Assembly (NCBI RefSeq): GCF_900105065.1
Contig: NZ_LT629749.1
Span: 1,612,001 to 1,676,000, forward strand
DNA: 64,000 nucleotides
Direction of reading: 5' to 3'
DNA from: Friedmanniella luteola
GTDB lineage: Bacteria; Actinomycetota; Actinomycetes; Propionibacteriales; Propionibacteriaceae
Both the position numbers and the translations under genes were made by a program. The notes beneath the pieces were generated by a model. It saw only the letters and a program-made list of their open reading frames with translations, made no database searches and was not told the origin of the DNA. Each line of letters starts with the position of its first letter. The stretch's first letter is position 1. Below, one piece after another: positions 44,851 to 63,740 of the stretch.

Positions 44851-44910
44851 GCACGCAGTGGACGACCCTCGTGCGGAGCGGGTCAGTGGACGACCCTTAA
44901 GCGGGACACT
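44851..44910. repeat. Hairpin-repeat cluster 1
   Basis: Two units starting AGTGGACGACCCT 28 bp apart (44857, 44885). The first has the core CGTGCGGAGC, the second is diverged (TTAAGCGGGACAC). Confidence 0.7.
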
Positions 44911-44950
44911 TCGAAGGTGCCTGTCCAATGCAGGTCGTGGCGGGTGGCGG

Positions 44951-45775
44951 TCAGGGGTCTACGTTCGTGCTGTTGCTTAGCTCGATCCAGGCGTCGAGTT
45001 CGGCTTGCTGGTTTGCCAGGTTGGTGCGGATCGACTCGACGGCGTCTGGACCCAGGGGGAGATGCAGTGGCGGGTTTGGCTGGGCGAGGGCGCTAATGAT
45101 GGCTGCGGCGGCCTTGGCAGGGTCGCCGGGCTGCTGGCCGTCGGCTTCGGCGAAGCGGTTCCGCAAGGGCCCGAGTTGGTTGTCATAGGCGTCGATGGGT
45201 GTCGAGGTACCAATAGCGCCTGCAGTGTTGAAGCCGGTTCGGAAGGCGCCGGGCTCGACGATGAGGACCTTGATGCCGAATGGTTGCAGCTCGGCGGCCA
45301 GCGCTTCCGACCATCCCTCAAGGGCGTACTTCGACGCGGAGTACGCCCCTACGCCCGGAAAGGTCGTGCGGCCACCCATGCTGCTCATTTGCACGATCGC
45401 ACCTGAGCGGCGGTCCCGCATGGACGGCAGGACGAGCCGCGTGAGTGCGGTCGGGCCGAAGAAGTGGAGGTCCATCAGTTGCCGCAGCTCGTCGTCGGTC
45501 GTTTCCTCGGCGGCTCCGAGGTGGCCGCGGCCCGCGTTGTTGACCAGGACATCGATGCGTCCGTGCTCCGCGAGGACCTGATCCACGACCCCCGGCATGG
45601 CGTCGAGGTCGGTGACATCGAGCTCGACTACCGACGCCTTCTCCGCGAGCTCGCCCAGGGCGTCCGGACGACGCACTGCTGCCACCACCGTGAACCCCTC
45701 GACCAGCGCCGCTTCGGCGACCGAGCGTCCGAAGCCCGACGACGCGCCGGTGATCAGCCACACCTGAGAGTCCAT
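44951..45775 (-). CDS. Short-chain dehydrogenase/reductase (SDR)
   Basis: A 274-aa classical SDR: cofactor motif LITGASSGFGRSVAEAALVE, LDVTDL, NNAGRGHLGAAEET, the catalytic serine in VQMSSMGGRTTFPG and YSASK (AYSASKYALEGWSEALAAEL), then VEPGAFRTGF. The sequence after the Rossmann core resembles the common retinol-dehydrogenase/YbbO-like actinobacterial group, which prefers NADP(H). The substrate is unknown. ATG at 45775 is chosen because a glycine-free N-terminal extension to 45823 lacks SDR character. It stands alone, ending 41 bp from a repeat cluster. Confidence 0.92.
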   Translation of the reverse strand: MDSQVWLITGASSGFGRSVAEAALVEGFTVVAAVRRPDALGELAEKASVVELDVTDLDAMPGVVDQVLAEHGRIDVLVNNAGRGHLGAAEETTDDELRQLMDLHFFGPTALTRLVLPSMRDRRSGAIVQMSSMGGRTTFPGVGAYSASKYALEGWSEALAAELQPFGIKVLIVEPGAFRTGFNTAGAIGTSTPIDAYDNQLGPLRNRFAEADGQQPGDPAKAAAAIISALAQPNPPLHLPLGPDAVESIRTNLANQQAELDAWIELSNSTNVDP

Positions 45776-46096
45776 ACCCCGAGTGCGCCACCTCCTCCAG
45801 CACGGTGTCAAGGGATGTCGCACGAGCGTCGCCCGACTGTCACGCCCTTGTCGCGAAGGAGGTCACTCACCAGTGTCAACGGCAACAACCAGTTCTCCTG
45901 GACCCCGGATAGCCGATCCCTATCTGAAGCACTAGCGGGGCCGCCCCTGAGGACGAAGACTGCAATGACCGATTCAGCAGGCAGCAAAGGTCCGGCGTGA
46001 CCCAACCAGCAAGGGTGCGATGAGTTGACCTACCAAGTAGCAAGCCCCTAGCACTACTGTGCGGCGGACAGTACCGTCGGCTCATGCCGGTGGCTG
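45776..46096. other. Divergent intergenic region
   Basis: Separates the SDR and PadR genes. No coding frame has domain character; it should hold both promoters. Confidence 0.4.
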
Positions 46097-46474
46097 ATGA
46101 CCCGCGAACCGCGCCGCAGCCTGTTGCATCGAGGCGTGCTGGATATGTGCGTGTTGTCGATGGTGGGTCGACAGCCCGACCGCGTGTACGCGCTTGTCGG
46201 CCGGATGGCGGACCGAGGACTGGAGCCGTGAGCTTCGGCAGCCTCTACCCTGTGGGCAACCGGCTACGCCAGCAGGGCCCTGCTGGACGAGACCAGTGTG
46301 ACGAGTCTGGTCGGGTCTCCTCGCACGGTGCTCTCGCTGACCAGCGCCGGTGAGGCAGCACTGGCACGCTGGTCAAGGCAGTGGCGAAACCTGAATGCCG
46401 TGGTGGGGCGTCTGCTCGAGCAGCTTGAAGCCGGCCAGGGCACGGTCCAGCTGCAGGCGGCGAGTGCGCTGTGA
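46097..46474 (+). pseudogene. PadR-family regulator with two compensating frameshifts
   Basis: From the ATG at 46097 the frame reads LLHRGVLDMCVLSMVGRQPD, RVYALVGRMADRGLEP and stops. A one-base change there moves the reading to FGSLYPVGNRLRQQG (the PadR GTLYP motif); one extra C near 46281 returns it to the first frame: LLDETSVTSLVGSPRTVLSL, TSAGEAALARWSRQW. So the whole PadR winged helix is present but broken twice. The frame then ends in TGA overlapping a GTG start (GTGA at 46471), showing the ancestral coupling to the next gene. PadR proteins repress stress or efflux genes. Confidence 0.7.
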
Positions 46475-46830
46475 TCAAGCCGGAGCTGGAGTGGCTTCTT
46501 GCGTCGTGGGTCCGGCTGGTCCGGTCGCGGTGGGCCGCGACCGGCATGTCCCGAGAAGATCGGGCGGTGCTGCTGCGCCAGCGGCTGAAGGACCTGGCGG
46601 CGGCGCGAGCGGTCGGGGCGACGATCAACGAGCTGGTCGCCACCGTCGCGCTGGCTCGGCTTCGAGCTGGTCCTGAGCAACCTCGCGGACCCCAGCCGCT
46701 GCCCGATGTGCTGACCCTGACCATGGGAAGCGCGTGGATCGGCGGTCCTGACCGGTATCCATCTCCGAACGTCGTGTCCGATGCCTGGCGAGCCCGAATC
46801 GAGGAGACGTCATGCGCTACCTGCTATTGA
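46471..46830 (+). CDS. Hypothetical protein coupled to PadR
   Basis: A 119-aa protein beginning VIKPELEWLLASWVRLVRSR. The region DRAVLLRQRLKDLAAARAVG and ATINELVATVALA is helical and recalls the small DUF1048/HAAS-type partners often encoded after PadR regulators, but the match is weak and no membrane helix follows. The GTG overlaps the PadR stop. The 3' end overlaps the YCII start by 19 bp, so the C-terminal residues may have arisen by a frameshift. I do not assign a function. Confidence 0.5.
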   Translation: MIKPELEWLLASWVRLVRSRWAATGMSREDRAVLLRQRLKDLAAARAVGATINELVATVALARLRAGPEQPRGPQPLPDVLTLTMGSAWIGGPDRYPSPNVVSDAWRARIEETSCATCY

Positions 46831-47147
46831 TCTGCTTTGAGGCGTCTGCGGCGGCGAACGCACAGCCAGGGTTGACCGCCGACTCCCAAGCGTGGGCCAA
46901 GGCGTTGGAGGAGCAGGGGATCCGCACTGTCGGCGGCCCCTTGGGACCGATCAGCGATGCACGGTCGGTGCGGGTGCGAGATGATCAGGTCCTGCTCGAG
47001 GATGGCCCGTTCACCGAGACATCGGAGCAGATCGGCGGCTTCGAGCTGATCAACTGCGCCGACCTGGACGAGGCGGTGGCGGTGGCCGCCCAGCATCCGG
47101 TCGCCAAACTGGGCACAGTTCAGGTGCGCCCACTGGGCGAGGAATGA
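46812..47147 (+). CDS. YCII-family (DGPF) protein
   Basis: A 111-aa YCII/DGPF-domain protein: MRYLLLICFEASAAANAQPG, then GGPLGPISDARSVRVRDDQV and LEDGPFTETSEQIGGFELI, giving the DGPF signature and the conserved acidic residues. The fold is ferredoxin-like. Members are often encoded with ECF sigma factors or other regulators and are thought to bind small ligands or act as weak enzymes; the exact role is unknown. GAGGAG lies before the ATG at 46812. It is followed after 46 bp by a VOC protein gene. Confidence 0.92.
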   Translation: MRYLLLICFEASAAANAQPGLTADSQAWAKALEEQGIRTVGGPLGPISDARSVRVRDDQVLLEDGPFTETSEQIGGFELINCADLDEAVAVAAQHPVAKLGTVQVRPLGEE

Positions 47148-47193
47148 GAGTTCTCCGCTCCAGAAATACCCTTCGATCGGTGAGGAGCCAGAA

Positions 47194-47592
47194 GTGGGAC
47201 TAAGTGAACACAAGGTCGAGGTCGTCATTGCCGTGTCAGACCTCGATCAGGCCCGAGCGTTCTATGAGGACCAGCTCGGCCTGCGACTTGGCCCGAGGCA
47301 GGACGTGGAGGACCAAGGGGTGCGCTATACCTGCGCAGCGGGGACGGGGATTTTCGTATACCTCTCGCCAGACAACGCAGGCAAGTCCTCGGCAACCCTG
47401 GCGGGCTGGTTCGTTGACGACCTCGACGAGACCATGACCGACCTCTCGTCGCGAGGAGTTACCTTCGAGCACTACGACCTGCCCGGGATCAGCACTGATG
47501 CCCGCGGAGTGTTCGACGACGGCCGACTCAAAGCCGCCTGGGTCAAAGACCCCGACGGCAACACCATTGCCCTTACCGAGCTGTCCACCTAG
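47194..47592 (+). CDS. VOC-superfamily (glyoxalase-like) protein
   Basis: A 132-aa single VOC protein with the two beta-alpha-beta-beta-beta repeats: VEVVIAVSDLDQARAFYEDQ, then LGLRLGPRQDVEDQGVRYTC, and in the second half WFVDDLDETMTDLSSRGVTF with AAWVKDPDGNTIALTEL. The KDPDGN segment is typical of glyoxalase/bleomycin-resistance-like proteins, which use a metal to act on diverse small molecules or bind them. The GTG at 47194 follows GGAG. It appears co-transcribed with YCII. A repeat cluster begins about 20 bp after the stop. Confidence 0.92.
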   Translation: MGLSEHKVEVVIAVSDLDQARAFYEDQLGLRLGPRQDVEDQGVRYTCAAGTGIFVYLSPDNAGKSSATLAGWFVDDLDETMTDLSSRGVTFEHYDLPGISTDARGVFDDGRLKAAWVKDPDGNTIALTELST

Positions 47593-47611: not shown

Positions 47612-47690
47612 ATCATCGTCAGTTGCCGACCCTCGTGCTGAGACGTCAGTGGACGACCCTCGTGCGGGACGCACGCAGTGGCCTACTCCC
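47612..47690. repeat. Hairpin-repeat cluster 2
   Basis: Units start at 47621, 47648 and 47677 (27-29 bp apart) after a gene end. The middle unit has the longer core CGTGCGGGACGCACG, a 6-bp stem with a GGA loop. Confidence 0.75.
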
Positions 47691-48391: not shown

Positions 48392-48440
48392 CAGAGTAGG
48401 AGGCGAACCTCAAAGCGGCTCACCGTTGCGCGAAGCGCAT

Positions 48441-48600
48441 GCGGTGGCCGACCTCCGTGCGGAGCACGTCAGTGACCGACCCTCGTGCGGAGCACGTCAG
48501 TGACCGACCCTCGTGCGGAGCACGTCAGTGACCGACCCTCGTGCGGAGCAGGTTCGTGGCCGACCGTGGTACGGGACGCATGCGTTGGCTGCAGCGGGAG
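48441..48600. repeat. Hairpin-repeat cluster 3 (three exact tandem units)
   Basis: AGTGACCGACCCTCG, TGCGGAGCACGTC repeated at 48471, 48499 and 48527 with exactly 28-bp spacing, flanked by diverged units to about 48600. Each unit carries a CGTGC/GCACG stem with a GGA loop. Confidence 0.9.
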
Positions 48601-48688: not shown

Positions 48689-49240
48689 TCAGGGTTGGAA
48701 GGGGTCGCGGTCGTCGGCCAGGAGGTCTTCGCCTTCGCCGGGGAGCAGCCATCGTTGGGTGTTGAGCTGGGCGGATCGGGTGAGGTAGGCGTTGCGGCGT
48801 TCGGCGCTGGTGGGGGGGTGCTCGTCGGCTCGGGGGAGGCGTAGCTCGGTGGCTGGTGTGCCGAGGTAGCTGATCTGTTCGGTGAAGCCGCCAGGGGTGT
48901 AGAGGTTGAGGACCCGGGCGGTGTCGCTGGCGACGGCGAAGCCGTGGACGGTGCCAGCGGGGATGGACAGCAGCGTGCCGGTGTGGGCGGTTGTCACCTC
49001 TTGCCGGATCTGGAAGTGGATGGCGCCGTCGAGGACGTAGAAGTACTCGTGCAGCCGATCGTGGACGTGGGGTGGGGGGCCGCTGCGGCGGGGCATCAGT
49101 TGGTCGAGGACGGTGAGTGCGCCGCCGGTGGCTTCGGCGGGGGCGAGGACGGACCACAAGGAGTCGACCATCCAGTAGCTGGGGACGTCCTGACGTGTGG
49201 TGAGGAAGGGTTCGAGGGTGTTGGAGGGTGTGTTCGGCAT
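48689..49240 (-). CDS. Cupin-domain protein (quercetin dioxygenase-like)
   Basis: A 183-aa cupin: first motif GPPPHVHDRLHEYFYVLDGA (HxH...E), second motif IPAGTVHGFAVASDTARVLN, with a GGFTEQISYLG loop following. It resembles quercetin 2,3-dioxygenase-type actinobacterial proteins that bind a metal through the HxHxxxxE set. A function as an oxygenase or as a ligand-binding protein is equally likely. The ATG at 49240 has a GGTCCC leader and the NmrA gene lies 32 bp upstream in the same direction, so they form an operon. Confidence 0.88.
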   Translation of the reverse strand: MPNTPSNTLEPFLTTRQDVPSYWMVDSLWSVLAPAEATGGALTVLDQLMPRRSGPPPHVHDRLHEYFYVLDGAIHFQIRQEVTTAHTGTLLSIPAGTVHGFAVASDTARVLNLYTPGGFTEQISYLGTPATELRLPRADEHPPTSAERRNAYLTRSAQLNTQRWLLPGEGEDLLADDRDPFQP

Positions 49241-49272
49241 GGGACCGGTCTCCTGCTGATGGTGGGGTTGGG

Positions 49273-50175
49273 TCAGGACTGTGAGGCGTGGTGGGCGGCG
49301 GTGAGGTAGTCGTCGAGGGTGGTGAGCTGGAGGTCGGGGTAGCGGTCGGTGTCGGTGGTCGCGAATGGCGGCACGGTGATCATCGACAGGAAGTACCACT
49401 CCGTGAGCACTGACCAGGGGTCCTGCGCGGCGGCGGTGATGCGCCGGAGGTCGTCGGCGTCGCCGAGGACCTGGATGGTGAGCGGGCGGCCGGTGAGCGT
49501 CCCGGTCTTGGCGATGATCGTGTTGAACGTGGTCTCGGCGCCCGAGACCCGGCGGACGCCGGAGATGTCGTCGGGGTCGGTGGCCAGTCGCGCCGTGAAC
49601 TGGGCGGTGTCGTCGACGGTGGTGAGGTTGAACGGTTCGTCGCCGGTGCCCCATAGCCGGGCGGTGTCGGTGTGGAGGTCGACGATGCCGGCGGTCTGCG
49701 GGTAGAGCATCATGTCCATGAATGCGCCGTTGAGGATGTGGACGACTTGGAGCGGCATAGCGTCGATGGCGGCGTCAGCCTGGCGGCGCATCGCGAACTG
49801 GGGGGCACCTTCGGGGGCGGCGAACAGGTCGAGGGCGAAGTCCGAGGCGATGAACCGGCGTGCGCCGTTGCCTACTGCGGCTTCTGCCAGCGCGACCTGC
49901 CCGTCGATGATGACCGTCGGCCCGCCCTGGAGCGCTGAGACGACGACGTCGACGCCGCGGGTTGCCTCCGCCAGGGAGGCCGGATCGTTGACATCGCCTG
50001 GTACCAGTACTGCGCCGCGAGCGGTCAGGCCCTCCAGAGCGGCGGCCTTCTCAGGATCGGGACGGGTCGAGTCGCGCGCCATCAGACGCACCTCGACTCC
50101 GTCCTGGTCGAGCAGATGGGCGGCGATCAACTTCCCGAGCATGCCGGTTGAGCCGGCGATCAGCACTGTCGTCAT
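49273..50175 (-). CDS. NmrA-like NAD(P)-binding family protein
   Basis: A 300-aa atypical SDR: MTTVLIAGSTGMLGKLIAAH with the GxxGxxG dinucleotide motif, RLMARDSTRPDPEKAAALEG, VPGDVNDPASLAEATRGVDV and FIASDFALDLFAAPEGAP. The C-terminal half has few catalytic residues (no YxxxK), as in NmrA/isoflavone reductase-like proteins that act as redox sensors or reductases. GGAGG 5 bases before the ATG at 50175 decides the start. It heads an operon with the cupin and is divergent from the TetR gene across a perfect palindrome. Confidence 0.9.
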   Translation of the reverse strand: MTTVLIAGSTGMLGKLIAAHLLDQDGVEVRLMARDSTRPDPEKAAALEGLTARGAVLVPGDVNDPASLAEATRGVDVVVSALQGGPTVIIDGQVALAEAAVGNGARRFIASDFALDLFAAPEGAPQFAMRRQADAAIDAMPLQVVHILNGAFMDMMLYPQTAGIVDLHTDTARLWGTGDEPFNLTTVDDTAQFTARLATDPDDISGVRRVSGAETTFNTIIAKTGTLTGRPLTIQVLGDADDLRRITAAAQDPWSVLTEWYFLSMITVPPFATTDTDRYPDLQLTTLDDYLTAAHHASQS

Positions 50176-50222
50176 CAAGACCTCCATCGGTTGGACCCTC
50201 ATCTAGGAGCCGCTGCTAATCT

Positions 50223-50243
50223 AATACGCTACCGTAGCGTATT
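50223..50243. promoter_or_regulatory. Perfect TetR operator palindrome
   Basis: AATACGCTA, CCG, TAGCGTATT: 9-bp perfect arms around a 3-bp centre, in the 88-bp region between the divergent NmrA and TetR genes. Classic architecture for an autoregulating TetR repressor. Confidence 0.85.
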
Positions 50244-50263
50244 GCAACTGGTAGGATGGGGTC

Positions 50264-50842
50264 ATGGCCGAGGCAGTGGTGCGGGGGGCGGGTCGCCCGC
50301 GAGACGTCACCGTGGACGCTGCTGTGCTGCGTGCGACGCAGGATCTGTTGCTGGAGCAGGGCTTCGACCGGTTGTCGGTGGAGGGGGTGGCCGCCCGGGC
50401 GGGGGTGGCCAAAGCCACGATCTATCGGCGGTGGCCCGGTAAGACGGCTCTGGTCGTGGCCGCGGTCGCCGAGCTGTACCACGTGCCACCAGTCCCTGAC
50501 ACCGGCGATCTGCGCGAGGACCTCCTGGCGTGTGGACGGACCTACGTCCACCAAGGAAGAACCCAGGCCGTCCTGGCAGGGCTGATGACCGCGATGGTGC
50601 ACGAGGACGAGCTGCGTACTGCAGCCACCGCAGCCATCGGCGGCCCCTACACAGCCCTCTTCCACCAGGTCATCAGCCGCGCCGTCGAACGCGGCGAAGC
50701 GCAACCGGACACCGACGTGACCTCGGTCAGCGAGGTGTTCCCCGCTCTGGCCTTCCACCGCGGAGCCGCCCTCGGACTCGCCGTCGACGAGCAGATGGTC
50801 GTCCGGGTCGTCGACCGCCTCCTCCTCCCCCTCCTGCGCTGA
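50264..50842 (+). CDS. TetR-family transcriptional repressor
   Basis: A 192-aa regulator. The N-terminal HTH is VLRATQDLLLEQGFDRLSVE then GVAARAGVAKATIYRRWPGK, a canonical TetR DNA-binding domain. The C-terminal domain has TAMVHEDELRTAATAAIGGP and ALFHQVISRAVERGEAQPDT. It is divergent from the NmrA-cupin operon, with a perfect 21-bp palindrome between, so it very likely represses both directions and is released by a small molecule that the two enzymes handle. The ATG is at 50264. Confidence 0.93.
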   Translation: MAEAVVRGAGRPRDVTVDAAVLRATQDLLLEQGFDRLSVEGVAARAGVAKATIYRRWPGKTALVVAAVAELYHVPPVPDTGDLREDLLACGRTYVHQGRTQAVLAGLMTAMVHEDELRTAATAAIGGPYTALFHQVISRAVERGEAQPDTDVTSVSEVFPALAFHRGAALGLAVDEQMVVRVVDRLLLPLLR

Positions 50843-50942: not shown

Positions 50943-50980
50943 AGCGACCCTCGTGCGGAGCGCGTCAGTGGCCGACGCCT
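50943..50980. repeat. Hairpin-repeat cluster 4
   Basis: One full unit (GCGACCCTCGTGCGGAGCG, then CGTCAGTGGCCGAC) about 100 bp after the TetR stop, inside the 396-bp gap before the next gene. No gene is seen in the rest of that gap. Confidence 0.65.
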
Positions 50981-51238: not shown

Positions 51239-51664
51239 GTGAGCATATTTTCCAAAACTAAGGACACCAACCTGGCTGCGCAGACGGCCTTCGGGGAGGC
51301 GGTGAACTCGGGCAGCCTAGCCTTCGACGACCTCGTTGCTGCCGCCTCGGTGGACCATGACCCAGCACCGGGTCAGGTGCCGGGGCCGCAGGGGTACCGC
51401 ACGATGTTTGCCGAGCTGCGGGCGGCGTTCCCGGATCTGAAGATCGAGGTCGAGCATCTCGTGGCTGACGACGACAACGTCGCCTTCGCCTACGCCGTCT
51501 CCGGTACTCACTCCGGACCGTTCCAGGGCCACGAGCCGACCGGCCGAACCTTCCGTGTCCGCGGGATGCAGATCAGCCGTTTCGCCGACGGCAAGCTCGT
51601 CGAACGGTGGGGCAGCAGCGACCAGCTCGGCATCCTCACCCAACTCGGTCTCTCCACTACATGA
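51239..51664 (+). CDS. SnoaL-like/ester cyclase family protein
   Basis: A 141-aa NTF2-fold protein: AFGEAVNSGSLAFDDLVAAA, DHDPAPGQVPGPQGYRTMFA, then ELRAAFPDLKIEVEHLVADD with FAYAVSGTHSGPFQGHEPTG and RFADGKLVERWGSSDQLGIL. This is the SnoaL polyketide-cyclase-like arrangement (histidine in SVDHDP, aspartates in the pocket), a group that also includes many enzymes of unknown function. GTG start at 51239 after GAGGGAGAGAG. It stands alone on the plus strand. Confidence 0.9.
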   Translation: MSIFSKTKDTNLAAQTAFGEAVNSGSLAFDDLVAAASVDHDPAPGQVPGPQGYRTMFAELRAAFPDLKIEVEHLVADDDNVAFAYAVSGTHSGPFQGHEPTGRTFRVRGMQISRFADGKLVERWGSSDQLGILTQLGLSTT

Positions 51665-51999
51665 GGCTGCCGACGGGGGCACTACTCGAGGCCGCCCGCG
51701 ATGCACGGGCGTACCGGTCGGTTTCTCGGCCGGCGTCCTAACCGACCAAATCTTCAGGCTCGCCTCCAGCCACGGTGCGCCCGTAGCGTCAAGACCTCGG
51801 TCCAGGCCCACGACTACCAAGGTCAGCCAGTCCTACTTCGCCGACATCGACAACCACCCGAAAGCCGACCGTCCAGCGGTGCACCGCAGGCGGAATGGCG
51901 TGCAGTGAGCACCAGGTTGCCCCAACAAGCCGCACAGGTCACCGCAAGGGATGCGCCGACTGCGAGGGGTGCTGTCATGGGCCGGCCGAGCAACCGGCC
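51665..51999. other. Gap without recognised gene
   Basis: Between the SnoaL-like gene and the convergent hydrolase. Frames here are low-complexity and share no domain; no hairpin repeat is present either. Confidence 0.4.
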
Positions 52000-52782
52000 T
52001 CAATTGGTGCCGCCCAGGATCAGCCGGGCCGCTTCGTGCGGTGCGTCCCATTGCGGAAAGTGACCGCACCGCTCGAACCAATGCAGAACGGCGTCGGGGA
52101 ACAACTCCGTGGCACGTGCGGCCTGTCTAGGCACCGTCACCAAGTCACGACGCCCCCAACCGATCGTGACCCGGCCGGGCACTGTGCCCGCCGGGGCGCC
52201 CCGCTGCTTGGGCCCTTTGGTCAGGGCGTCCATGGCGGCGTTCGTCGACGGGGCGTCAGCCAGCCCGCTCAGGTCCGGCAGCACGGTCTCTCGCGAGAGC
52301 GCCCAGGGTCGCGCCGAGAACTGCGCCAACAGCAAAGTTCTGCCTACGGTGCTGTCAAGCAGTGACGGCAACCTTCCGCGCAGCGCTCGGACCAAGGAGA
52401 TCGACGGTCGCAGCGTGGCGCCGAACACGAGGCGTTCTCGGTCGCTCCAGAAGCCGCCTGGGTCTAGGGACACGGTGTCGCCGCCGACTCCCCGCCGCGC
52501 GAGCTCGAGCACGATTCGGCCGCCCATCGACTGGCCGACTGTGGCGACCCCGTCCAGCCCCTGCTCGCGGATGAACTCGGCGACAGAGTCGGTCAAAGTG
52601 GCGATCGAGACCTCGCCGGTCAAGGGTGGCGTGTTGCCGAACCCCGGTAGGTCGACGGCCACCACTTCGCGGCGCTCCGCCAGTTCGTCCATCAGCGGGG
52701 ACCAAGATCGCCATCCTGCGCCTAGACCGTGCACCAGCAACAGCGGGCTGCCGCTTCCGCGTCTCACGTAACTCAACGTCAC
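52000..52782 (-). CDS. Alpha/beta-fold hydrolase
   Basis: A 260-aa alpha/beta hydrolase: oxyanion region LLLVHGLGAGWRSWSPLMDE, VAVDLPGFGNTPPL, the nucleophile serine in VATVGQSMGGRIVLELARRG, the acid in IGWGRRDLVTVPR and the histidine in WFERCGHFPQWDAPHEAARL. The layout matches epoxide-hydrolase/haloalkane-type or esterase relatives; the substrate cannot be told from the motifs. GTG at 52782 is the only start before the family N-terminus (TLSYVRRGSGSPLLLVHG). Single gene. Confidence 0.92.
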   Translation of the reverse strand: MTLSYVRRGSGSPLLLVHGLGAGWRSWSPLMDELAERREVVAVDLPGFGNTPPLTGEVSIATLTDSVAEFIREQGLDGVATVGQSMGGRIVLELARRGVGGDTVSLDPGGFWSDRERLVFGATLRPSISLVRALRGRLPSLLDSTVGRTLLLAQFSARPWALSRETVLPDLSGLADAPSTNAAMDALTKGPKQRGAPAGTVPGRVTIGWGRRDLVTVPRQAARATELFPDAVLHWFERCGHFPQWDAPHEAARLILGGTN

Positions 52783-53274
52783 GCTCGGAACGCTATCTCA
52801 CGCCGATCTCGGCCAACGTGGTCACAACACGCGGATGCCCTCGCGGCACACGACCGTAGCGGCCACGGTGAGGCGGGCCCTCGGGGGTAGAGGCATGGCC
52901 ACCACCCTGCCGATCGGGTTCAGATGCGGCCGCATCTGATCATGCTTCAGTGGAAATTCGAGCGCCCGTACGCCCACCCTCGTGCGGTGCATGTCGGGGC
53001 CGACCCTCGTGCGGGGCACGTCAGTGACCGACCGACGCGCGGGACGGAGCAGTCAGTGACCCTTCTGCCGAAGGAGCCGGCATGGCCAAGAGGGGGCTAA
53101 TTCGGGTCCGCCCTTGAACATGTGCCCGACGCATCAGCTCGTCGCGGCCGATTCGGTTGCGTACGACCGGTTGGATGCTATGTTCCTTGTGCTTGATCTT
53201 GGCTCGGGGATTCGCGGTGCTGCGGTGCTTCTCGCTGGCAGTTTGTTTGGCGGTTTAACCGCTGTGAAAGCTGA
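52783..53274. other. Gap with repeat cluster and sortase promoter region
   Basis: Contains repeat cluster 5 and, before the sortase, a possible promoter: TTGCGT (53157-53162) and TATGTT (53179-53184) with 16-bp spacing. The long plus-strand frame starting at 53114 overlaps the sortase in another frame and is not considered real. Confidence 0.4.
52972..53062. repeat. Hairpin-repeat cluster 5
   Basis: Two good units (CCACCCTCGTGCGGTGCATG; CGACCCTCGTGCGGGGCACG) and diverged copies (ACGCGCGGGACG) spanning 90 bp upstream of the sortase-ferritin block. Confidence 0.7.
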
Positions 53275-55547: not shown

Positions 55548-56783
55548 ATGGTGCTGCAGACACTGACTGCGCCGACTTCCCGAACGGCTCTGCTGGGCCG
55601 CACCCGCCTGCTCGGCCCGGCCTTCGTGGCGGCCGTCGCCTACGTCGACCCGGGCAACGTCGCGACCAACACCACCGCCGGGGCCACCTACCAGTACCTG
55701 CTGCTCTGGGTCCTGGTCGGCGCCACCTTGATGGCCGGGCTCATCCAGTACCTGTCGGCCAAGGTCGGCTGGCTGACCGGGGAGTCGCTGCCCGCCCTCG
55801 TCGGCGCCCGCACCCGCCGTCCGGTGCGGCTCGCCTACTGGGTGCAGGCCGAGCTGGTCGCCGTCGCCACCGACATCGCCGAGATCGTCGGCGGCGCCCT
55901 GGCCCTGCAGCTGCTCTTCGACCTGCCGCTGGTGGCCGGCGCCCTGGTCACCACGACCGTCTCCACCGCCCTGCTCTACGTCCAGCGGCACGGCCAGCCC
56001 ACCTTCGAGAAGGTCATCACCGCCCTGCTGGCCGTGGTCACCGTCGGCTTCCTCGCCGGGCTGGTCGTCGACCCGCCGGCAGCGGGCGAGGCCGCCCGCG
56101 GGCTCGTGCCCCGCCTCGCCGGCGTCGACAGCGCCCTGCTGGCCGTCGGCATGCTGGGCGCCACCGTCATGCCGCACGCGGTCTACCTGCACTCGGCGCT
56201 GGTCCGTGACCGGCACGGCCGGGCCGACGCGACCAACGCCCGCCCGGTGCTCGGCGCGGTCAAGGCCGACGTGGTGCTGGCCATGGTCGTCGCCGGCAGC
56301 GTGAACATCGGGATGCTGCTGCTGTCCGGCAGCGCGCTGTTCGGCCTGCAGCTGGACGGGCTGAGCGAGGTGCACGCGGCGATCGGGGCCGGGCTCGGCC
56401 CGCTGGTGGCGGTCCTGTTCGCCCTCGCGCTGCTGGCGTCCGGACTGGCCTCCACCTCGGTCGGCGGCTACGCCGGTGCGGTGATCATGGACGGCCTGCT
56501 GCACCGCCGGATCCCGCTGCTCTGGCGCCGCCTCGCCACCGCCATCCCGGCCCTGGTGCTGCTCGCCCTCGGCGCCGACCCCACCCAGCTGCTGATCCTG
56601 TCCCAGGTGGTGCTGTCCTTCGGCATCCCCTTCGCCCTGGTCCCGCTGGTCCGGATCGCCCGTGACCGCCGGCTGATGGCCCTGGTCCCCACCCGGGGCG
56701 CGACGATCGTCCTCACCTGGGCCGTCGTCGCGGCCATCGTCGCCCTCAACGCCCTGCTGGTGGTCCTGCTCGTCCTGGCCTGA
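55548..56783 (+). CDS. Nramp-family divalent metal transporter (MntH-like)
   Basis: A 411-aa proton-coupled Mn(II)/Fe(II) importer with eleven predicted helices. The DPGN motif of helix 1 is in AVAYVDPGNVATNTTAGATY, the helix-6 motif is MPHAVYLHSALVRDRHG, and SGLASTSVGGYAGAVIMDGL is also conserved. The methionine usual before PHA/PHN in helix 6 is present. It ends with LVVLLVLA. The ATG at 55548 follows GAGAAGGG. Placed after the ferritin-like genes, it points to metal and oxidative-stress handling in this block. Confidence 0.94.
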   Translation: MVLQTLTAPTSRTALLGRTRLLGPAFVAAVAYVDPGNVATNTTAGATYQYLLLWVLVGATLMAGLIQYLSAKVGWLTGESLPALVGARTRRPVRLAYWVQAELVAVATDIAEIVGGALALQLLFDLPLVAGALVTTTVSTALLYVQRHGQPTFEKVITALLAVVTVGFLAGLVVDPPAAGEAARGLVPRLAGVDSALLAVGMLGATVMPHAVYLHSALVRDRHGRADATNARPVLGAVKADVVLAMVVAGSVNIGMLLLSGSALFGLQLDGLSEVHAAIGAGLGPLVAVLFALALLASGLASTSVGGYAGAVIMDGLLHRRIPLLWRRLATAIPALVLLALGADPTQLLILSQVVLSFGIPFALVPLVRIARDRRLMALVPTRGATIVLTWAVVAAIVALNALLVVLLVLA

Positions 56784-57099: not shown

Positions 57100-57165
57100 A
57101 CCCGATGCGGAGCACGTCAGTGGCCGACCCTCGTACGAGACGCGCACTGGCCGCCCCTCGTGTGG
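57100..57165. repeat. Hairpin-repeat cluster 6
   Basis: Units around CGATGCGGAGCACGTCAG, CCGACCCTCGTACGAGACG and GCCCCTCGTGTGG, ahead of a VOC gene. Confidence 0.65.
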
Positions 57166-57255: not shown

Positions 57256-57651
57256 ATGGCTACTTACTGGACCATCGGCGCTGACGCCGACGACCCAGCC
57301 GCCCTGGCTGCGTTCTGGGCCTTCGCGCTCGACTACGTGCTTGAGCCGGGCTATGACGACCCTGATGGTGCGTCCATCGTCGACCCCGCCGGCATCGGCT
57401 CTGCGATCGGGTTCCTGCGCGTACCCGAGGCAAAGACGGCCAAGAACCGCTTCCACATAGATATCCGGGTAGCAGGCGAGCCTCCGTGGGACTGGACTGA
57501 GCGCGCTGACCTGATGCGAGCGACGGTCGATCGACTGGTCACTCGTGGTGGCACCAAGGTCCGGGAAGAGTTCTACAGCGAGGGAGCCGGCAACGTGCTA
57601 GGTCACGTGGTCATGCTGGATCCCGAGGGCAACGAGTTTTGCGTGGCCTGA
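57256..57651 (+). CDS. Glyoxalase-like (VOC) domain protein
   Basis: A 131-aa protein of the Glyoxalase_6-like VOC group: IGADADDPAALAAFWAFALD, VDPAGIGSAIGFLRVPEAKT, NRFHIDIRVAG and HVVMLDPEGNEFCVA. The FHID...MLDPEGNEFCV pattern is the hallmark of this small actinobacterial family, of unknown substrate. The ATG at 57256 follows a GGCGGC leader. A four-unit repeat array lies directly after it. Confidence 0.9.
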   Translation: MATYWTIGADADDPAALAAFWAFALDYVLEPGYDDPDGASIVDPAGIGSAIGFLRVPEAKTAKNRFHIDIRVAGEPPWDWTERADLMRATVDRLVTRGGTKVREEFYSEGAGNVLGHVVMLDPEGNEFCVA

Positions 57652-57673: not shown

Positions 57674-57835
57674 AGACGTGCGGAGCATGCGATAGCCGCC
57701 CCTTCGCCCGGGGCGCACGCAGTGGCCGACCCTCGTGCGGAGCATGTCAGTGAGCGACCCTCGTGTGGAGCACGTCAGTGGACGACCCTCGTGTGGAGCA
57801 CGTCAGTGGACGACCCTCGTACGGGACGCAGCCTT
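57674..57835. repeat. Hairpin-repeat cluster 7 (four tandem units)
   Basis: AGTG marks unit starts at 57721, 57749, 57777 and 57805, exactly 28 bp apart; cores CGTGCGGAGCATG and CGTGTGGAGCACG vary by single bases. An extra diverged unit lies at each end. Confidence 0.9.
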
Positions 57836-57935: not shown

Positions 57936-58232
57936 GTGAAGTTCAGGGTTCAGCAGATAGCCCGTGGCTTCTGGCGCGAGCGGTACCTCTTCTGCATCCA
58001 GGCCTCGACTAGCGAGGAGTGGCAGTGCCGCGATGTCGGCCCGCGTGAGCTCGACAAGGAGCTGCGCCAACTTGGCTTTGCGGACCATCGCGACTCCTAC
58101 GACATCTACACCAAACTTCGCTTCGCTGTTCGCCACTACGGCCTCGGCCATGGATACGTCGAGTGCGACCTGAGTGCTGATGTGACCGGTCCGGAACGGT
58201 TCGAGGGAGACCCTCGGCTCGACCGTGCCTAG
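57936..58232 (+). CDS. Hypothetical protein, 98 aa
   Basis: Reads VQQIARGFWRERYLFCIQAS, then DKELRQLGFADHRDSYDIYT, LRFAVRHYGLGHGYVECDLS. The mixed alpha/beta pattern with aromatics looks like a genuine soluble protein, but no family is recognised. The GTG at 57936 follows CGAG. A repeat cluster is 124 bp downstream. Confidence 0.6.
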   Translation: MKFRVQQIARGFWRERYLFCIQASTSEEWQCRDVGPRELDKELRQLGFADHRDSYDIYTKLRFAVRHYGLGHGYVECDLSADVTGPERFEGDPRLDRA

Positions 58233-58355: not shown

Positions 58356-58415
58356 TGCTGGACGACCCTCGTGCGGAGCACGTCAGTGGACCGTTGTGCG
58401 GACGCATGCAGTGGA
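58356..58415. repeat. Hairpin-repeat cluster 8
   Basis: One full unit with core CGTGCGGAGCACG and a diverged unit (CCGTTGTGCGGACGCATG) next to the 3' end of a minus-strand gene. Confidence 0.7.
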
Positions 58416-58773: not shown

Positions 58774-58828
58774 CAGTACGCGACCCTCGTGCGGAGCACG
58801 TAAGTGACCGACGCCCGTGCGGGTCGGA
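58774..58828. repeat. Hairpin-repeat cluster 9
   Basis: One full unit (CGACCCTCGTGCGGAGCACG) and one diverged (CCGACGCCCGTGCGGGTCGG), upstream of the membrane protein gene. Confidence 0.65.
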
Positions 58829-58978: not shown

Positions 58979-59329
58979 CTAGTCCAGGACGGCGTAGAGG
59001 CGGGTGATGCGACCGTTGCGGACAATGGCGACGTCGCTGCCCCCCAGGACCGGGTCATCGTCCGGCGTTCCGAGCTGCCAGTGGAAGACCAGGAGGTCGT
59101 CAACTCCTTGGGCCGGTCTCTTCAGCGAGAAGAGCGTTGCCGGACCCATCAACGCGGCGAGGTCATCGATACGCCTGATGAACGCCTCACGGCCATCAAC
59201 AGGGCCGTCTTGGTCGACGTAGCGGATCGCCTCGTCGAAGAGGCCTTCGATGGCTTTCCGGCGCCGTTCAGGGTCGCGTTCGTTCGACACCTCGGTCAGG
59301 TAGCGGGTCGCCAGGTCTCCTGAGGTCAT
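58979..59329 (-). CDS. NTF2-like (SnoaL) family protein
   Basis: A 116-aa NTF2-fold protein: LATRYLTEVSNERDPERRRK, AIEGLFDEAIRYVDQDGPVD, GREAFIRRIDDLA and FHWQLGTPDDDPVLGGSDVA ending RNGRITRLYAVLD. Aspartates in the pocket could bind a small molecule or catalyse a cyclisation; the substrate is unknown. ATG at 59329. Repeat clusters lie upstream and downstream. Confidence 0.85.
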   Translation of the reverse strand: MTSGDLATRYLTEVSNERDPERRRKAIEGLFDEAIRYVDQDGPVDGREAFIRRIDDLAALMGPATLFSLKRPAQGVDDLLVFHWQLGTPDDDPVLGGSDVAIVRNGRITRLYAVLD

Positions 59330-59439: not shown

Positions 59440-59552
59440 GCACACGCACGAGGGTGGCCACTGCGTGCGTCCCTGTTGAAGTGGTCGCAAGGATCGGCCG
59501 GAGCACGTCAGTGGTCGACCCTCGTGCGGAGCACGTCAGTGACCGACCCTTG
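59440..59552. repeat. Hairpin-repeat cluster 10 (both orientations)
   Basis: First an inverted copy (CACGCACGAGGGTGGCCACT, then GCGTGCGTCCC), then two direct units (AGCACGTCAGTGGTCGACCC; CTCGTGCGGAGCACGTCAG). The only clear case of opposite orientation inside one cluster. Confidence 0.75.
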
Positions 59553-59618
59553 GGCAAAGCGCGGGGTGGCCGACCAATCTTCCGAGACAGCCGGCCCGTT
59601 GAGCCTGAGGATGGCTCT

Positions 59619-60011
59619 ATGACTCCCGAGTCCGCCGCCATCGCCGAGGCGTTCAGCCGACCGGTGCGCGCTGCCGGGCTGGAAGTGCGATCCGGCCAGG
59701 TGACCGAGCCAATGATGGTGCAAGTTGCCGTCACTGACAGTCGAAAAGGTGGCCACCTGGTTGCCCTATTCGAAGCGGCGACCAATGACTACGTGGGCGT
59801 ATGGCTCGACAACGGCGCAGACTTCTGGGAGCACGAGTGGCACCAGCCGGGCCGAGAAGAGTTCGCGGCTGAGCTCGGGGGAGTGGTTGTGGCGCACGTT
59901 GCGGGCGATGGGACGTACGAGAAGGGTGGCCGTCACTACCGCGTGACAGTCGGCGATGGGTCCATTCGGACCCGCTTCCGCGTAGACCGCGAGCGGGTGC
60001 TGGAGCTGTAG
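59619..60011 (+). CDS. Hypothetical protein, 130 aa
   Basis: Reads AIAEAFSRPVRAAGLEVRSG, VQVAVTDSRKGGHLVALFEA, NDYVGVWLDNGADFWEHEWH and GRHYRVTVGDGSIRTRFRVD. The beta-rich pattern is coherent but unfamiliar. The ATG at 59619 is chosen because 59611 is out of frame. A repeat cluster begins 33 bp after the stop. Confidence 0.6.
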   Translation: MTPESAAIAEAFSRPVRAAGLEVRSGQVTEPMMVQVAVTDSRKGGHLVALFEAATNDYVGVWLDNGADFWEHEWHQPGREEFAAELGGVVVAHVAGDGTYEKGGRHYRVTVGDGSIRTRFRVDRERVLEL

Positions 60012-60044
60012 GAGGACGGGCGATCCGATGGCTCCACCAGCGGA

Positions 60045-60150
60045 GCCTCATGCGGGGCATGTCAGTGGCCGACCGTTGTGCGGGACGCACGTCAGTGGAC
60101 GACCCTCGTGCGGGACGCACGGATCGGCCGACCGTTGTGCGGGACGAGTG
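60045..60150. repeat. Hairpin-repeat cluster 11
   Basis: Three units with 29-30-bp spacing whose cores are the longer GTGCGGGACGCAC form (loop GGA, 5- to 6-bp stem), between a plus-strand gene end and a minus-strand gene end. Confidence 0.85.
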
Positions 60151-60191: not shown

Positions 60192-60938
60192 TCAGTGGTT
60201 GGTGAGGAAACCTCCGTCGACGGGCAGGGTGTGGCCGGTGATCCAGGCGGCGTCGTCCGAGGCGAGGAACGCGACGGCTGCCGCGATGTCGTCGGGCTCA
60301 CCTACTCGGCCCAGCGGGTACAGCGGCTGCAGTCGGTCGGCGCCACCTTCTTGGTCGTCCCAGACTCGGGTCCTGATGGTGCCAGGGGCTACACCGTTCA
60401 CTCGGATGTGGCCGGGCCCGAGGGAGAGCGCAAGATTGGTGGTCAAGGAGACTACCCCGGCCTTGGCCGCGGAGTAGGGCTCACTTCCCAAAGAGGTGTG
60501 AGCGTTGATCGAACCGACGTTGACGATCGCTGCCCGGCTGCGCCGTCGTAGGTGGGGGATCGCGGCCCGGCAGCAGCGGACAACCCCAATCAGGTTGAGT
60601 TGGATCATCTGGTGCCACACCTCGTCGCCGGTGTCTTCGAACGACCCGTGCTGGGTGTCGCCCCCGGCGACGTTGACCAGCACGTCAAGCCCTTCGCCTC
60701 CGACTGTTTGGAATGCCTCGTCGACTGACTCGGGCTTCGTGACGTCCAGCGCGACGGCTCGATGGCCGTCACCGGGAAGTCGGAGAGCGACCTCGTTAGC
60801 TTCGCCCCCGTCGAGGTCGGCCACCACGACGCGTGCGCCTTCAGCGGCTAGACGGCCGGCACAGGCTCGACCTATGCCGTGGGCCGCACCGGTGACCAGG
60901 ACCACGGAGTCGACGAAGCGGCGGCTGTTGAGTTGCAC
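60192..60938 (-). CDS. Short-chain dehydrogenase/reductase (SDR)
   Basis: A 248-aa classical SDR: VVLVTGAAHGIGRACAGRLA, DVTKPESVDEAFQTVGG, VNVAGGDTQHGSFED, the serine in IVNVGSINAHTSLGSEPY, YSAAKAGVVSLTTNLALSLG and the tail HTLPVDGGFLTNH. This pattern is close to 3-oxoacyl-ACP reductase/glucose dehydrogenase-type SDRs. GTG at 60938 gives the natural N-terminus; further upstream the frame passes through a repeat cluster. Single gene. Confidence 0.92.
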   Translation of the reverse strand: MQLNSRRFVDSVVLVTGAAHGIGRACAGRLAAEGARVVVADLDGGEANEVALRLPGDGHRAVALDVTKPESVDEAFQTVGGEGLDVLVNVAGGDTQHGSFEDTGDEVWHQMIQLNLIGVVRCCRAAIPHLRRRSRAAIVNVGSINAHTSLGSEPYSAAKAGVVSLTTNLALSLGPGHIRVNGVAPGTIRTRVWDDQEGGADRLQPLYPLGRVGEPDDIAAAVAFLASDDAAWITGHTLPVDGGFLTNH

Positions 60939-60970: not shown

Positions 60971-61022
60971 CCGCGCACTGTTGTGCGGGACGCACGCAAG
61001 CCGACCCTCGTGCGAAGCAGCC
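60971..61022. repeat. Hairpin-repeat cluster 12
   Basis: GTTGTGCGGGACGCACGC and CCGACCCTCGTGCGAAGC units between the SDR start and a small gene end. Confidence 0.7.
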
Positions 61023-61453: not shown

Positions 61454-62023
61454 TCAACCGGCGATGAGCGCGGGCCGGCAGCGTATGGCGACAGCTCCGG
61501 ACCGGAACTCATGGCGATCCACGAGCTCGAGTTGGATGCGCTCGCGCAGCCCGGCGAGCAGTGTGGGACCGTGTCCGGCAAGTACCGGGTGCACGACGAA
61601 CTCGTACTCGTCGATCAGTCCCAGATCTGCCAACGCCAAGGGCAGCGTCACGCCACCCACCGACAGCCCCTCGCCTGGCTCCTGTTTGAGCCGCTGAACC
61701 GCTTCCCGCAGGTCGCCTCGCACCAGCTCGGCGTTCCAATCGACCTCGTTCAACGTGCTCGAGACGACGTGCTTCTTCGCCCGGTCGATCGTCTCGGCGA
61801 ACGGGATGTCCCACTCACCCATCCAGTCAGGCCACCTGCCAGTGGCTGGCTTCCGCCACGCGGACTCCATCATCTCGTAGGTCACCCGACCGTAGAGCAG
61901 GGCATCGGCCCGTTCCACCTGAGCGGTCCAGTAGTGCATCGACTCCTCGTCCGGGGGGAGCCCTGCCTCGTGGTGGCAGCAGCCGTCTAGCGAGACGTTG
62001 ATCGAGTATCGGAGTGGTCTCAC
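61454..62023 (-). CDS. Dihydrofolate reductase-like (RibD C-terminal) family protein
   Basis: A 189-aa DHFR-fold protein: RPLRYSINVSLDGCCHHEAG, RADALLYGRVTYEMMESAW, VDWNAELVRGDLREAVQRLK, LSVGGVTLPLALADLGLID and VVHPVLAGHGPTLLAG. The LYGRVTYE and GGVTL segments are the standard marks of RibD-C/YyaP-type reductases, which use NADPH on unknown substrates rather than folate. GTG at 62023 with GGGAG upstream. Single gene. Confidence 0.92.
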   Translation of the reverse strand: MRPLRYSINVSLDGCCHHEAGLPPDEESMHYWTAQVERADALLYGRVTYEMMESAWRKPATGRWPDWMGEWDIPFAETIDRAKKHVVSSTLNEVDWNAELVRGDLREAVQRLKQEPGEGLSVGGVTLPLALADLGLIDEYEFVVHPVLAGHGPTLLAGLRERIQLELVDRHEFRSGAVAIRCRPALIAG

Positions 62024-62299: not shown

Positions 62300-62384
62300 T
62301 GGTCGACCGTTGTGCGGGACGCACGGCAGTAGCCGACCCTCGTGCGGGGCACGTCAGTGGACGACGCTGTTGCGGGACGTCCCA
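62300..62384. repeat. Hairpin-repeat cluster 13
   Basis: Units GTTGTGCGGGACGCACGGC, CGACCCTCGTGCGGGGCACG and a diverged CTGTTGCGGGACGTCCC, in the 429-bp gap between the reductase and the leucine-rich gene. No gene in the rest of the gap. Confidence 0.75.
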
Positions 62385-62452
62385 GCCTGTTTCGGACGAC
62401 GGCTGAGCAGCGGTTGTCGAGTGGCTCTCTCCGCACCAGTTACGGTCTGGTC

Positions 62453-63047
62453 ATGGCTCGGGCAACTCCGGTGGTTCATGAGGTGAGGCAGGACGCCGGC
62501 CAACCCGTCGTCGAGGTCTTCGCTACCCAGCTAGATGACCGCTACAGCGCGTCTCAGACGCGCTCGGTGCTCGCGGGGTGGGTCGAGTTCCTCGCAGCCG
62601 GACCGACGCCCATTCGCGAACTCGAGTTCGTGACGAGGACCCCAAAGCGTCTGTTCGCGGCACTGGCCGCCCAAGTTCAGCTAAAGGCGCTGCGCATGAA
62701 GTGGGGGGACTACGACGACCTACAGGTTCTTTGCAGGTCTCACCGAGCTCCACACGCTCGTGCTGGGCGGGGTGTCAGCAGTGCGATCGTTTGAGCCCCT
62801 GAAGGCCCTGAAGAGGCTGTCGAGCCTCGAGGTCGATGGCTTGCAGCACGTTCAAGGCCTGGCCCCGCTCGCGCAGCTGCCCGTGCTGACCTCTCTGACG
62901 ATCGGAGGTAGGTGGGCCAGTTTCAAGAACGTGCACGTGGACTCGCTGTCCTTCCTTCGCGCGATGCCGCAGCTGGAGCACTTGGTGCTGCATACTGCGG
63001 TCGTTGACGATGGTGACTACTCGCCTCTGCTTCAGCTTCCGAAGTAG
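62453..63047 (+). pseudogene. Leucine-rich-repeat-like protein, frameshifted
   Basis: From the ATG at 62453 the frame reads VEVFATQLDDRYSASQTRSV and RLFAALAAQVQLKALRMKWG. At about 62730 one extra base moves the reading to FAGLTELHTLVLGGVSAVRS, LKALKRLSSLEVDGLQHVQG, LPVLTSLTIGG and MPQLEHLVLHTAVVDDGDYS, ending at 63047. The L-x-x-L-x-x-L-x-L spacing is leucine-rich-repeat-like. Restored, the protein would be about 197 aa. The gap to 63300 shows nothing further. Confidence 0.65.
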
Positions 63048-63299
63048 CAAAGCGTCCGCGTGATGGCAAGCCGTGGCATGCGGCCGAGTATCGACCAGCT
63101 GCGATCTGCCCTCCCTTGGGACGGCTGACTTTAGACCCGAAGGCGTCCCGCGGTGGACCGTTCAGCGGGCCGGGTGCCGAACGCACCGAGGGGGTCGATC
63201 ATTCTCGGACGCCTGGCAGTGGTGGATCTCCCCACCAACGACTCCAGTGCTGTCCCGGATGAGCCGTCGTGCGAACGTGCCGAGTGGTTCGGCGATTGC

Positions 63300-63610
63300 C
63301 TAGTCAGCGATCTCCACCGCGAAGGCGGCTGGCTCGGGGTCGGCGCCGAAGACGTCACGATCGAAAAAGAACGGCGCCCCACTTCCTGTGCGTCGAGACA
63401 CCCGTGCGCCGATCCGGTCGCCATGCATCTGGTAGACGACGCAGAATCCCTCAGCGACCAGCCAGGCATCGACGATGGTTACATCTCGCCAGAGTGTGGG
63501 ACCGCCGTCGCGGAGGCGCTCTAGGCAGTGTAGGAGTGCTTGACTTCCCAGGAAAGCTCAGGACGAGAGCTGAGGCCCTCGATGAGGCGCTCGTGCGAGA
63601 TCGAGAACAC
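63300..63610 (-). pseudogene. Small conserved-looking protein gene split by a frameshift
   Basis: On the minus strand a GTG at 63610 with GGAGGT 7-8 bases upstream starts FSISHERLIEGLSSRPELSW, EVKHSYTA and then meets TAG. One missing base near 63523 would continue LERLRDGGPTLWRDVTIVDA, then WLVAEGFCVVYQMHGDRIGA, GSGAPFFFDRDVFGADPEPA and stop at 63300. The joined protein (about 103 aa) has a strong Shine-Dalgarno and coherent composition; I recall similar actinobacterial proteins of unknown function ending in FGxDPxPxxxAxEIAD. Confidence 0.6.
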
Positions 63611-63684
63611 GGCGTCACCTCCTCAACGGCCGCTCGTGTCGCGGCATCGTCGCAGCCATGGTCGCAGACGCGACCCGCTCGGGC

Positions 63685-63740
63685 AGTGCCCAAGCCGACA
63701 GTTGTGCGAAGCATCCAGTAGCCGACCCTCCTCGGGACGG
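63685..63740. repeat. Hairpin-repeat cluster 14
   Basis: Diverged units (CCGACAGTTGTGCGAAGCAT; AGCCGACCCTCCTCGGGACG) between the split gene and the nitronate monooxygenase end. Confidence 0.6.

Follow-up and report, generated by a model that had tools for sequence, protein, structure and literature searches.

What kind of element are the short repeats, each with a palindromic center, that punctuate an accessory region of the Friedmanniella luteola chromosome? They came to attention in a 64,000-nucleotide stretch of this member of the Propionibacteriaceae (contig NZ_LT629749.1, positions 1,612,001 to 1,676,000, or C1:1612001-1676000; hereafter, the window), where an earlier note, made from the letters of the window, described a family of hairpin repeats and listed a mobile hairpin element, a recombination hot spot responsible for assembling the island, and an RNA or terminator function as possible roles. 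The genome that carries the window (G000, a single contig of 4.72 Mb) was compared with others of its genus and family, including the genomes designated here G003, G008, G013, G014, G016, and G018, the last of which represents a related species. The earlier observation is confirmed and proves to be more extensive than described, and its interpretation is partly supported. We consider it reasonably likely that each repeat is a boundary site in an oriented array of mobile gene cassettes, which would be integron-like in its working without being an integron.

A scan of the window for CGACCCTCGTGCG, with up to 2 mismatches tolerated, gave 31 matches against 11.4 expected, a number reached in 0 of 100 shuffles. 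All 14 exact matches are on the plus strand, between 44.86 and 62.35 kb. Of the 5 minus-strand matches, three, each with 2 mismatches, precede 44.8 kb, whereas the remaining two, each with 1 mismatch, lie inside the region, at window positions 45819 and 59445. A 22-nucleotide (nt) weight matrix applied to the window at ≥12 bits finds 34 plus-strand units in 15 clusters, at 44861-63715. The 14 or 15 clusters of the earlier note are thereby recovered, and no unit of this strength occurs earlier in the window, but the array (array A) does not end with the window; it overshoots the window edge and runs to ∼1682.24 kb of the genome (70.2 kb in window coordinates). The core of ∼22 nt is GCCGACC[C/G]TCGTGCGG, followed by AGCACG or GACGCAC; the right half of the site accordingly has two forms, 2 bp apart. 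In a pool of 516 units of ≥13 bits, taken from the island stretches of the compared genomes and used also for the covariation analysis below, the left half is better conserved than the right (1.3-1.8 bits in most columns, calculated from units picked by a matrix covering those same columns). Within array A, tandem units recur every 27-30 bp, as first described, with 28 bp in 28 of the 38 spacings. Neighboring units inside a run resemble one another, and one run in array A, at 1677.94-1678.46 kb of the genome, comprises 19 units.

The repeat is confined to a few islands. The exact 14-mer CGACCCTCGTGCGG is present in 76 copies in the 4.72-Mb genome (40 on the plus and 36 on the minus strand), all in three islands: 32 in A (1656.9-1680.9 kb), 8 in B (1996-2045 kb), and 36 in C (2915-2935 kb), the full extents of the latter two being ∼1.97-2.07 Mb and 2.913-2.945 Mb. 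The reversed 14-mer, used as a control, has 0 copies in the genome. A 40-nt profile (R1), made from 98 of 108 distinct units after ten had been excluded by hand, has at least 154 matches in the same genome at an E value of ≤1; those listed are in A and B on the plus strand and in C on the minus strand, with a sole exception among the matches listed at 3243175 (minus strand, the direction of C). Because this search scored the best 150 of 6108 candidates, weak copies elsewhere may be overlooked, a limit from which the exact 14-mer count is free. The exceptional site lies in a ∼16-kb insertion at a tRNA-Ala gene (3234768-3250840) that is bordered by 80-bp direct repeats (94% identical) and carries an integrase gene at 3250084 and this one cassette site. 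In the 369 kb of the G000 core that are broadly collinear with G018 (153 intergenic gaps), there are 0 units of ≥17 bits, compared with 159 in the rest of the same two G000 stretches.

A point absent from the earlier note is the single direction of all strong units (≥17 bits) within each island. The counts are 104 plus and 0 minus in A and B and 0 plus and 55 minus in C; in G018, they are 22 plus and 0 minus in the stretch of one array (G018a) and 47 plus and 1 minus in the 505-kb stretch that contains another (G018b), the lone minus-strand unit being at 4201129. At ≥12 bits, units opposing the island direction number 2 minus in A, 4 minus in B, 3 plus in C, 1 minus in G018a, and 2 minus in G018b; the reversed-sequence control at this level gives 8 positions. 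The genes follow no such rule: 15 of 24 are on the site strand in A, 38 of 92 in B, and 10 of 22 in C, with 8 of 14 and 6 of 7 in two other arrays. The clusters avoid genes, as first noted, with 0 of 18 inside genes in A, 1 of 34 in B, 0 of 14 in C, 0 of 18 in G018b, and 0 of 4 in G018a (random means, 9.7, 23.0, 7.5, 8.7, and 3.3, respectively). The reported preference for gene 3' ends is present but weak. Among the 156 gene ends adjoining clusters within 800 bp in these five arrays, 87 are 3' ends and 69 are 5' ends; 54 of the former and 25 of the latter lie within 130 bp of a cluster.

The directions of the islands may be related to replication. A dif-like sequence, TCCGATAAGCGACATTATGTCAG (3 mismatches to a dif consensus), is found in G000 at 2.211 Mb and also in G018, with none in G014, and an rpmH-like motif at 4.627 Mb of G000 was taken as the origin mark, from the usual gene order around the origin; DnaA-box searches for oriC detected no cluster. 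These positions would give two arms of ∼2.3 and 2.4 Mb, and on this reading every strong site in G000 points from the origin to the terminus. Both G018 arrays would do likewise if the origin there is opposite the dif-like site. The two contig ends of G000 carry similar stretches at unequal offsets, at ∼2.1 and 11.4 kb of the stretch taken from one end and at genome positions 4704436 and 4712656 at the other, which could be a terminal repeat or duplicated genes.

Array A lies within a 109.7-kb accessory stretch that extends from window position 32039, where collinearity with G018 ends, to 1753690 of the genome. The core gene at its left border has a C-terminal sequence like that of a principal sigma factor. 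The corresponding G018 stretch (4122-4169 kb) measures 46.8 kb and contains array G018b, with genes different from those of array A; thus, this hot spot has retained one site while its genes were replaced. This shared hot spot, together with the site-bounded units that recur in new contexts (see below), speaks for the suggestion in the earlier note that a recombination hot spot assembled the island.

To look for mobile units, the islands of five genomes were compared with the units and 8 bp on each side of them masked (E value, 1e-10; self-matches within one repetitive gene excluded), and the block ends were then viewed unmasked. For G000 and G018, the unmasked views took rows of ≥400 bp, or of ≥700 bp and ≥74% identity. 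One 454-bp block is present three times in G018b, at 4135752, 4148024, and 4151606. With the site halves included, pairwise comparison of the copies over 491 positions gives 490, 487, and 488 identities, and the flanks diverge past the site runs. The best open frame of the block (103 amino acids, hydrophobic) is on the strand opposite to the sites. On the left side of the block, the site itself varies among the copies, with ACCGACC, ACCGACA, and GCCGACC before CTCGTGC; at that end they have ..GTGCGGGACCGC in common, and to the right of CTCGTGC all have GGGACCGC. At the right end, the common sequence is CTCATGCG (..CATGCG), after which one copy differs inside the site. Provided that it was the same at both ends, the exchange point would fall within unit positions 10-16, that is, at the palindrome center. 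In the other clear case, positions 2917782-2918101 in array C are 92% identical to positions 4137412-4137732 of G018; the unmasked homology spans the site clusters on both sides and ends near their outer edges (2917564-2918158), and the neighboring cassettes have no homology at an E value of 1e-12. The one other block common to C and that G018 stretch is 22 kb away and 75% identical. Partial cases include a 240-bp block of array A, found at 1656642 and at 1680705-1680945 of the genome, which diverges right after CGACCCTCGTGCGG on the right and whose left end is not at a site, and a block common to two G014 arrays (G014a, 1397235; G014b, 2189753), whose left end is a site.

A scheme in keeping with these observations can be proposed. 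A cassette would start with a right half-site, GGACGCAC or GGAGCACG, and end with a left half-site, AGCCGACC[C/G]TCGTGCG. It would carry a single gene or a few, in either orientation, which are therefore presumed to have their own promoters. Where two cassettes adjoin, the halves would form CGTGCG-GGA-CGCACG or CGTGC-GGA-GCACG. Exchange near the palindrome center, perhaps through conservative site-specific recombination, would cut out and insert whole cassettes or copy them, and the sites would therefore keep a uniform direction despite the mixed strands of the genes. The tandem runs would be gene-less units multiplied by local duplication; their usual spacing is 28 bp in G018 and in arrays A and C of G000, whereas it is 28-29 bp in B and 25 bp in G014. 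The enzyme would act in trans or have since been lost.

Several observations weigh against a dedicated cassette system, beginning with the enzyme, which was not found: no recombinase tracks the arrays among the compared genomes. The XerC/D-like tyrosine recombinase gene that opens the hot spot (window positions 32177-33049, plus strand, 12 kb from the first site) is an unlikely candidate. Its product has LLRCTKAQ where a fragment in G013 has LLRYTKAQ, that is, a Cys at the expected position of the catalytic Tyr, and is probably inactive. Its relatives in G000 (a second copy), G018, and G016 are 38-41% identical, and G013 has 61-89% identical pieces of a broken copy; all four genomes are site-rich, and matches in other genomes are Xer-like (29-37%). 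The settings of these relatives are phage-like: the second G000 copy adjoins a tRNA-Met gene, and the G018 relative lies in a ∼2.8-kb prophage-like insertion (4261544-4264342) with its integrase at a gene 3' end and the tail of the host gene duplicated at the far end. G014, the genome with the most R1 matches, has no close relative. A serine recombinase of array C was likewise rejected, having homologues in G014, between opposed blocks, and in G003 but none in G018. In G014, the array at 1393-1511 kb of contig C1 consists of opposed blocks, and the serine recombinase gene (1444014) lies between a plus and a minus block. The host Xer proteins are possible enzymes; an Xer-like match is present in 15 of 20 genomes of the genus, compared with 5 that have ≥10 site matches.

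The remaining difficulties concern the sites and blocks themselves. Array directions in G014 are mixed by blocks (108 plus and 81 minus), and this genome does not fit the origin-to-terminus direction. Of the 57 homologous pairs in the masked comparison, only 4 rows are bordered by a site at each end in the two copies alike, 3 of them representing the one 454-bp block of G018. Clear cassette cases are few: two blocks, with some partial ones. The 19-21-nt distances of block ends in that comparison were set by the mask, and therefore the unmasked views alone bear on breakpoints. The 2-bp difference between the two right-half forms is odd for a single strand-exchange geometry. Four site-flanked G000 blocks (2002193-2002920, 1665173-1668774, 2067978-2068904, and 2037505-2038315) have G018 relatives that lack nearby strong sites; the relative of 1665173-1668774, the sortase/Ferritin_2/Nramp cassette of array A, is 83-86% identical, lies elsewhere, and is inverted, without units of ≥17 bits. 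Either these genes became cassettes in one lineage or the sites were added later; hence, sites may also be acquired by existing genes. The G018a unit is an entire transporter operon, which is large for a cassette; the one close relative of the protein encoded by the flanking transporter gene is in G008, where it lies at the edge of a contig, which makes the empty-site comparison at G018a uninformative. Finally, the gene models were called within this analysis.

Among the alternatives, a role of the repeats in transcription termination or as structured RNA where genes end, one of those listed in the earlier note, has a negligible probability: although 54 of the 87 adjacent 3' ends are no more than 130 bp from a cluster, the site strand is the same regardless of the gene strand, and 69 of the 156 adjacent ends are 5' ends. 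The palindrome of the presumed hairpin core is real, but a hairpin function is not supported, because folding is near the level of shuffled sequences (z scores of +0.37, -1.15, and -0.23 for units and -0.60 for a 121-nt stretch) and no covariation is seen: none of the stem pairs exceeds the column shuffles at 5% (lowest fraction, 0.069) among 150 distinct cores of the A type and 94 of the B type, in a test that is weak since several columns hardly vary. An Rfam search of the tested stretches had no match at the sites. The palindrome looks rather as if it were kept as a sequence, as a protein-binding center would be. Only slightly less remote is the mobile hairpin of the earlier note, that is, palindromes of the repetitive extragenic palindrome (REP) or miniature inverted-repeat transposable element (MITE) type inserting between genes. 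REPs and bacterial interspersed mosaic elements (BIMEs), which go with REP-associated tyrosine transposases (RAYTs), are short palindromic extragenic repeats in clusters and in this resemble the many-copy intergenic repeat described here, and the four site-flanked genes with site-free relatives in G018 would also suit insertion. However, no Y1 transposase was matched (0 PF01797 matches in the genome; as a control, the search gave matches in 5 of 14 known genomes), the 153 core intergenic gaps contain 0 strong units, each island in G000 and G018 has a single direction, and the clear homologous blocks end at the repeat and switch neighbors instead of continuing across it. Recombination of 28-bp palindrome-centered sites by the host XerC and XerD, as in the pdif modules of Acinetobacter, is improbable. 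PMC6449649 describes these modules as one or a few genes between 28-bp sites with an inner palindrome, which the unit length, inner palindrome, and gene-sized modules of the arrays resemble, and Xer-type recombinases are present. Yet the dif-like sequence of G000 has AT-rich arms, compared with the GC-rich repeat site; the spacing is variable (25 and 27-30 bp); and Xer-like matches are more widespread than the sites, as described above. Nor does the repeat correspond to a 28-bp site of 11+6+11 bp resembling dif, the dif-like sequence being unlike the repeat and the spacing being 25-30 bp. The arrays differ from pdif modules also in being chromosomal and consisting of tens of units of another sequence, GC content, and spacing, with strong sites that share one direction per array in G000 and G018, whereas the title of a work cited in PMC6449649 speaks of inversely oriented pdif sites.

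The alternative to be taken most seriously, although we regard it as unlikely, is that an intergenic satellite spread first and that RecA-dependent homologous recombination between its runs then shuffled the genes, with no site-specific enzyme involved. It would account for the failure to find an array-tracking recombinase; the near-identical long tandem runs of up to 19 units offer substrates, and the likeness of neighboring units is a sign of local duplication. Mycobacterial interspersed repetitive units and other variable-number tandem repeats (MIRU/VNTR) similarly form tandem runs between genes, seemingly grown here by local duplication, but in the present case mobile gene blocks also end at the repeat. 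Some ends of the 454-bp block are only single or double units, which are short for efficient homologous recombination; the G018 case fits one exchange point at the palindrome center; and the 0 strong units in 153 core gaps give no sign of a spreading satellite.

How a cassette array bounded by such sites would relate to integrons can be stated more closely. Literature searches, including those by core sequence, returned no description of this repeat. Like integrons and clusters of attC sites lacking integrases (CALIN), the arrays have gene-sized cassettes of accessory genes, which are site-bounded and move as units in the two clear blocks and some partial ones, one repeated site with a mostly species-typical spacing (28 bp in arrays A and C of G000 and in G018; 25 bp in G014), a fixed direction, which is seen in G000 and G018 (47 plus to 1 minus and 22 plus to 0 minus) and not in G014, and no linked integrase. 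Integrase-less arrays are common, with 2961 CALIN compared with 2760 complete integrons (PMC9024848), and the direction of integron arrays relative to replication is treated in PMC8946536. By contrast with integrons, the conserved part of the site is ∼22-28 bp and is shared by two adjoining cassettes, one contributing its 3' end and the other its 5' start; the four stretches folded show no clear fold signal; and the genes are on both strands. The attC box pair (R''/R', RYYYAAC ... GTTRRRY) was found in 0 of 91 clusters, as in 0 of 91 random controls, and of 239 units, 21 have GTT at positions 6-10. The tested part of the hot spot encodes no IntI-like protein, the product of the gene at 32177-33049 scoring 24 bits against TIGR02249, whose cut-off is 265.

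Site-rich genomes are confined to one genus among the 198 Propionibacteriaceae genomes searched. The profile search of own and related genomes, which the earlier note had suggested, detects R1 matches in 8 of 20 genomes of the genus at an E value of ≤0.01, 5 of them with ≥10 matches: 139 in G014, 129 in G000, 57 in G018, 18 in G013, and 10 in G016. In the family, 10 of 198 genomes have matches at an E value of ≤0.001, including three outside the genus with one match each. In a contig collection of 84,980 species, possibly without F. luteola itself, one exact form of the repeat was found only in Propionibacteriaceae bacterium RYN_202. Viral or plasmid carriers were considered and dropped, in a search that did not take in the phages collection: viral_contigs had one exact match, whose 14.9-kb locus contains no other unit of ≥13 bits, and no match to the other form, and the 19-unit array used as a query had no plasmid match.

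In the window, the left part of the hot spot (32040-44860) has no site of ≥12 bits. The protein encoded at 43303-44076, shortly before the first site, combines a weak match for Lsr2 dimerization with a helix-turn-helix that weakly resembles resolvase and CRISPR-repeat-binding families. The array opens with a cluster of 2 units at 44861-44910 (24.7 and 17.7 bits), which holds the right end of the 240-bp repeated block; like all sites below, taken from the matrix, it is on the plus strand. It is followed by a short-chain dehydrogenase gene (44951-45763, minus strand; PF00106, 3.8e-48) and by genes for a YCII protein and a glyoxalase-family protein (46812-47592, plus strand). Clusters of 2 units (47625-47673) and 6 units with a period of mostly 28 bp (48418-48580) precede a predicted multigene cassette of cupin (minus), NmrA (minus), and TetR regulator (plus) genes at 48689-50842, with no unit of ≥12 bits between them. 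Single sites at 50943-50964 (25.4 bits) and 51864-51885 (weak, 14.1 bits) flank a SnoaL-like gene (51239-51664, plus strand; PF07366, 6.7e-34), and an alpha/beta hydrolase gene (52000-52692, minus strand) lies between the latter and a 3-unit cluster at 52972-53048. The cassette with genes for a sortase, two Ferritin_2 proteins, and an Nramp transporter (53431-56783, plus strand) ends before a unit at 57123-57144, seen by pattern scan and matrix and followed by a weaker copy. Then come a glyoxalase_6 gene (57256-57651, plus strand; PF18029, 3.5e-23), 4 units at 57725-57830, a gene for 98 amino acids without a Pfam family (57936-58232, plus strand), a single unit at 58361-58382 (27.6 bits), and 2 units at 58779-58828. 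A SnoaL_2 gene (58979-59329, minus strand), 2 units (59514-59563), a gene for 130 amino acids without a Pfam family (59619-60011, plus strand), 4 units (60040-60148), and a second short-chain dehydrogenase gene (60192-60938, minus strand; PF13561, 1.7e-60) come next. The last cassette gene in the window, coding for a RibD_C domain protein (61454-61939, minus strand), lies between clusters of 2 units at 60973-61021 and 62302-62353, and a single unit at 63694-63715 precedes the part of the array beyond the window. Elsewhere, genes between sites include one of the beta-lactamase family in G018a (L046:19200 on) and one of the APH(6)/hydroxyurea-kinase family in array C (2935357-2936082).

Tentatively, the arrays may represent an integron-independent form of gene capture in actinobacteria, with oriented arrays, a short, split, palindrome-centered site, an as-yet-unrecognized recombinase, and an origin-to-terminus direction like that of large integron arrays. 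In the IntegronFinder 2.0 report (PMC9024848), Actinobacteria are without a complete integron. If the arrays are a working cassette system, a phylum nearly devoid of integrons would have an integron-like gene store whose site is unrelated, and its enzyme could be sought directly with the arrays of G000, G018, and G014. If the genes are shuffled by homologous recombination alone, a simple repeat would still turn ordinary genes into exchangeable units.

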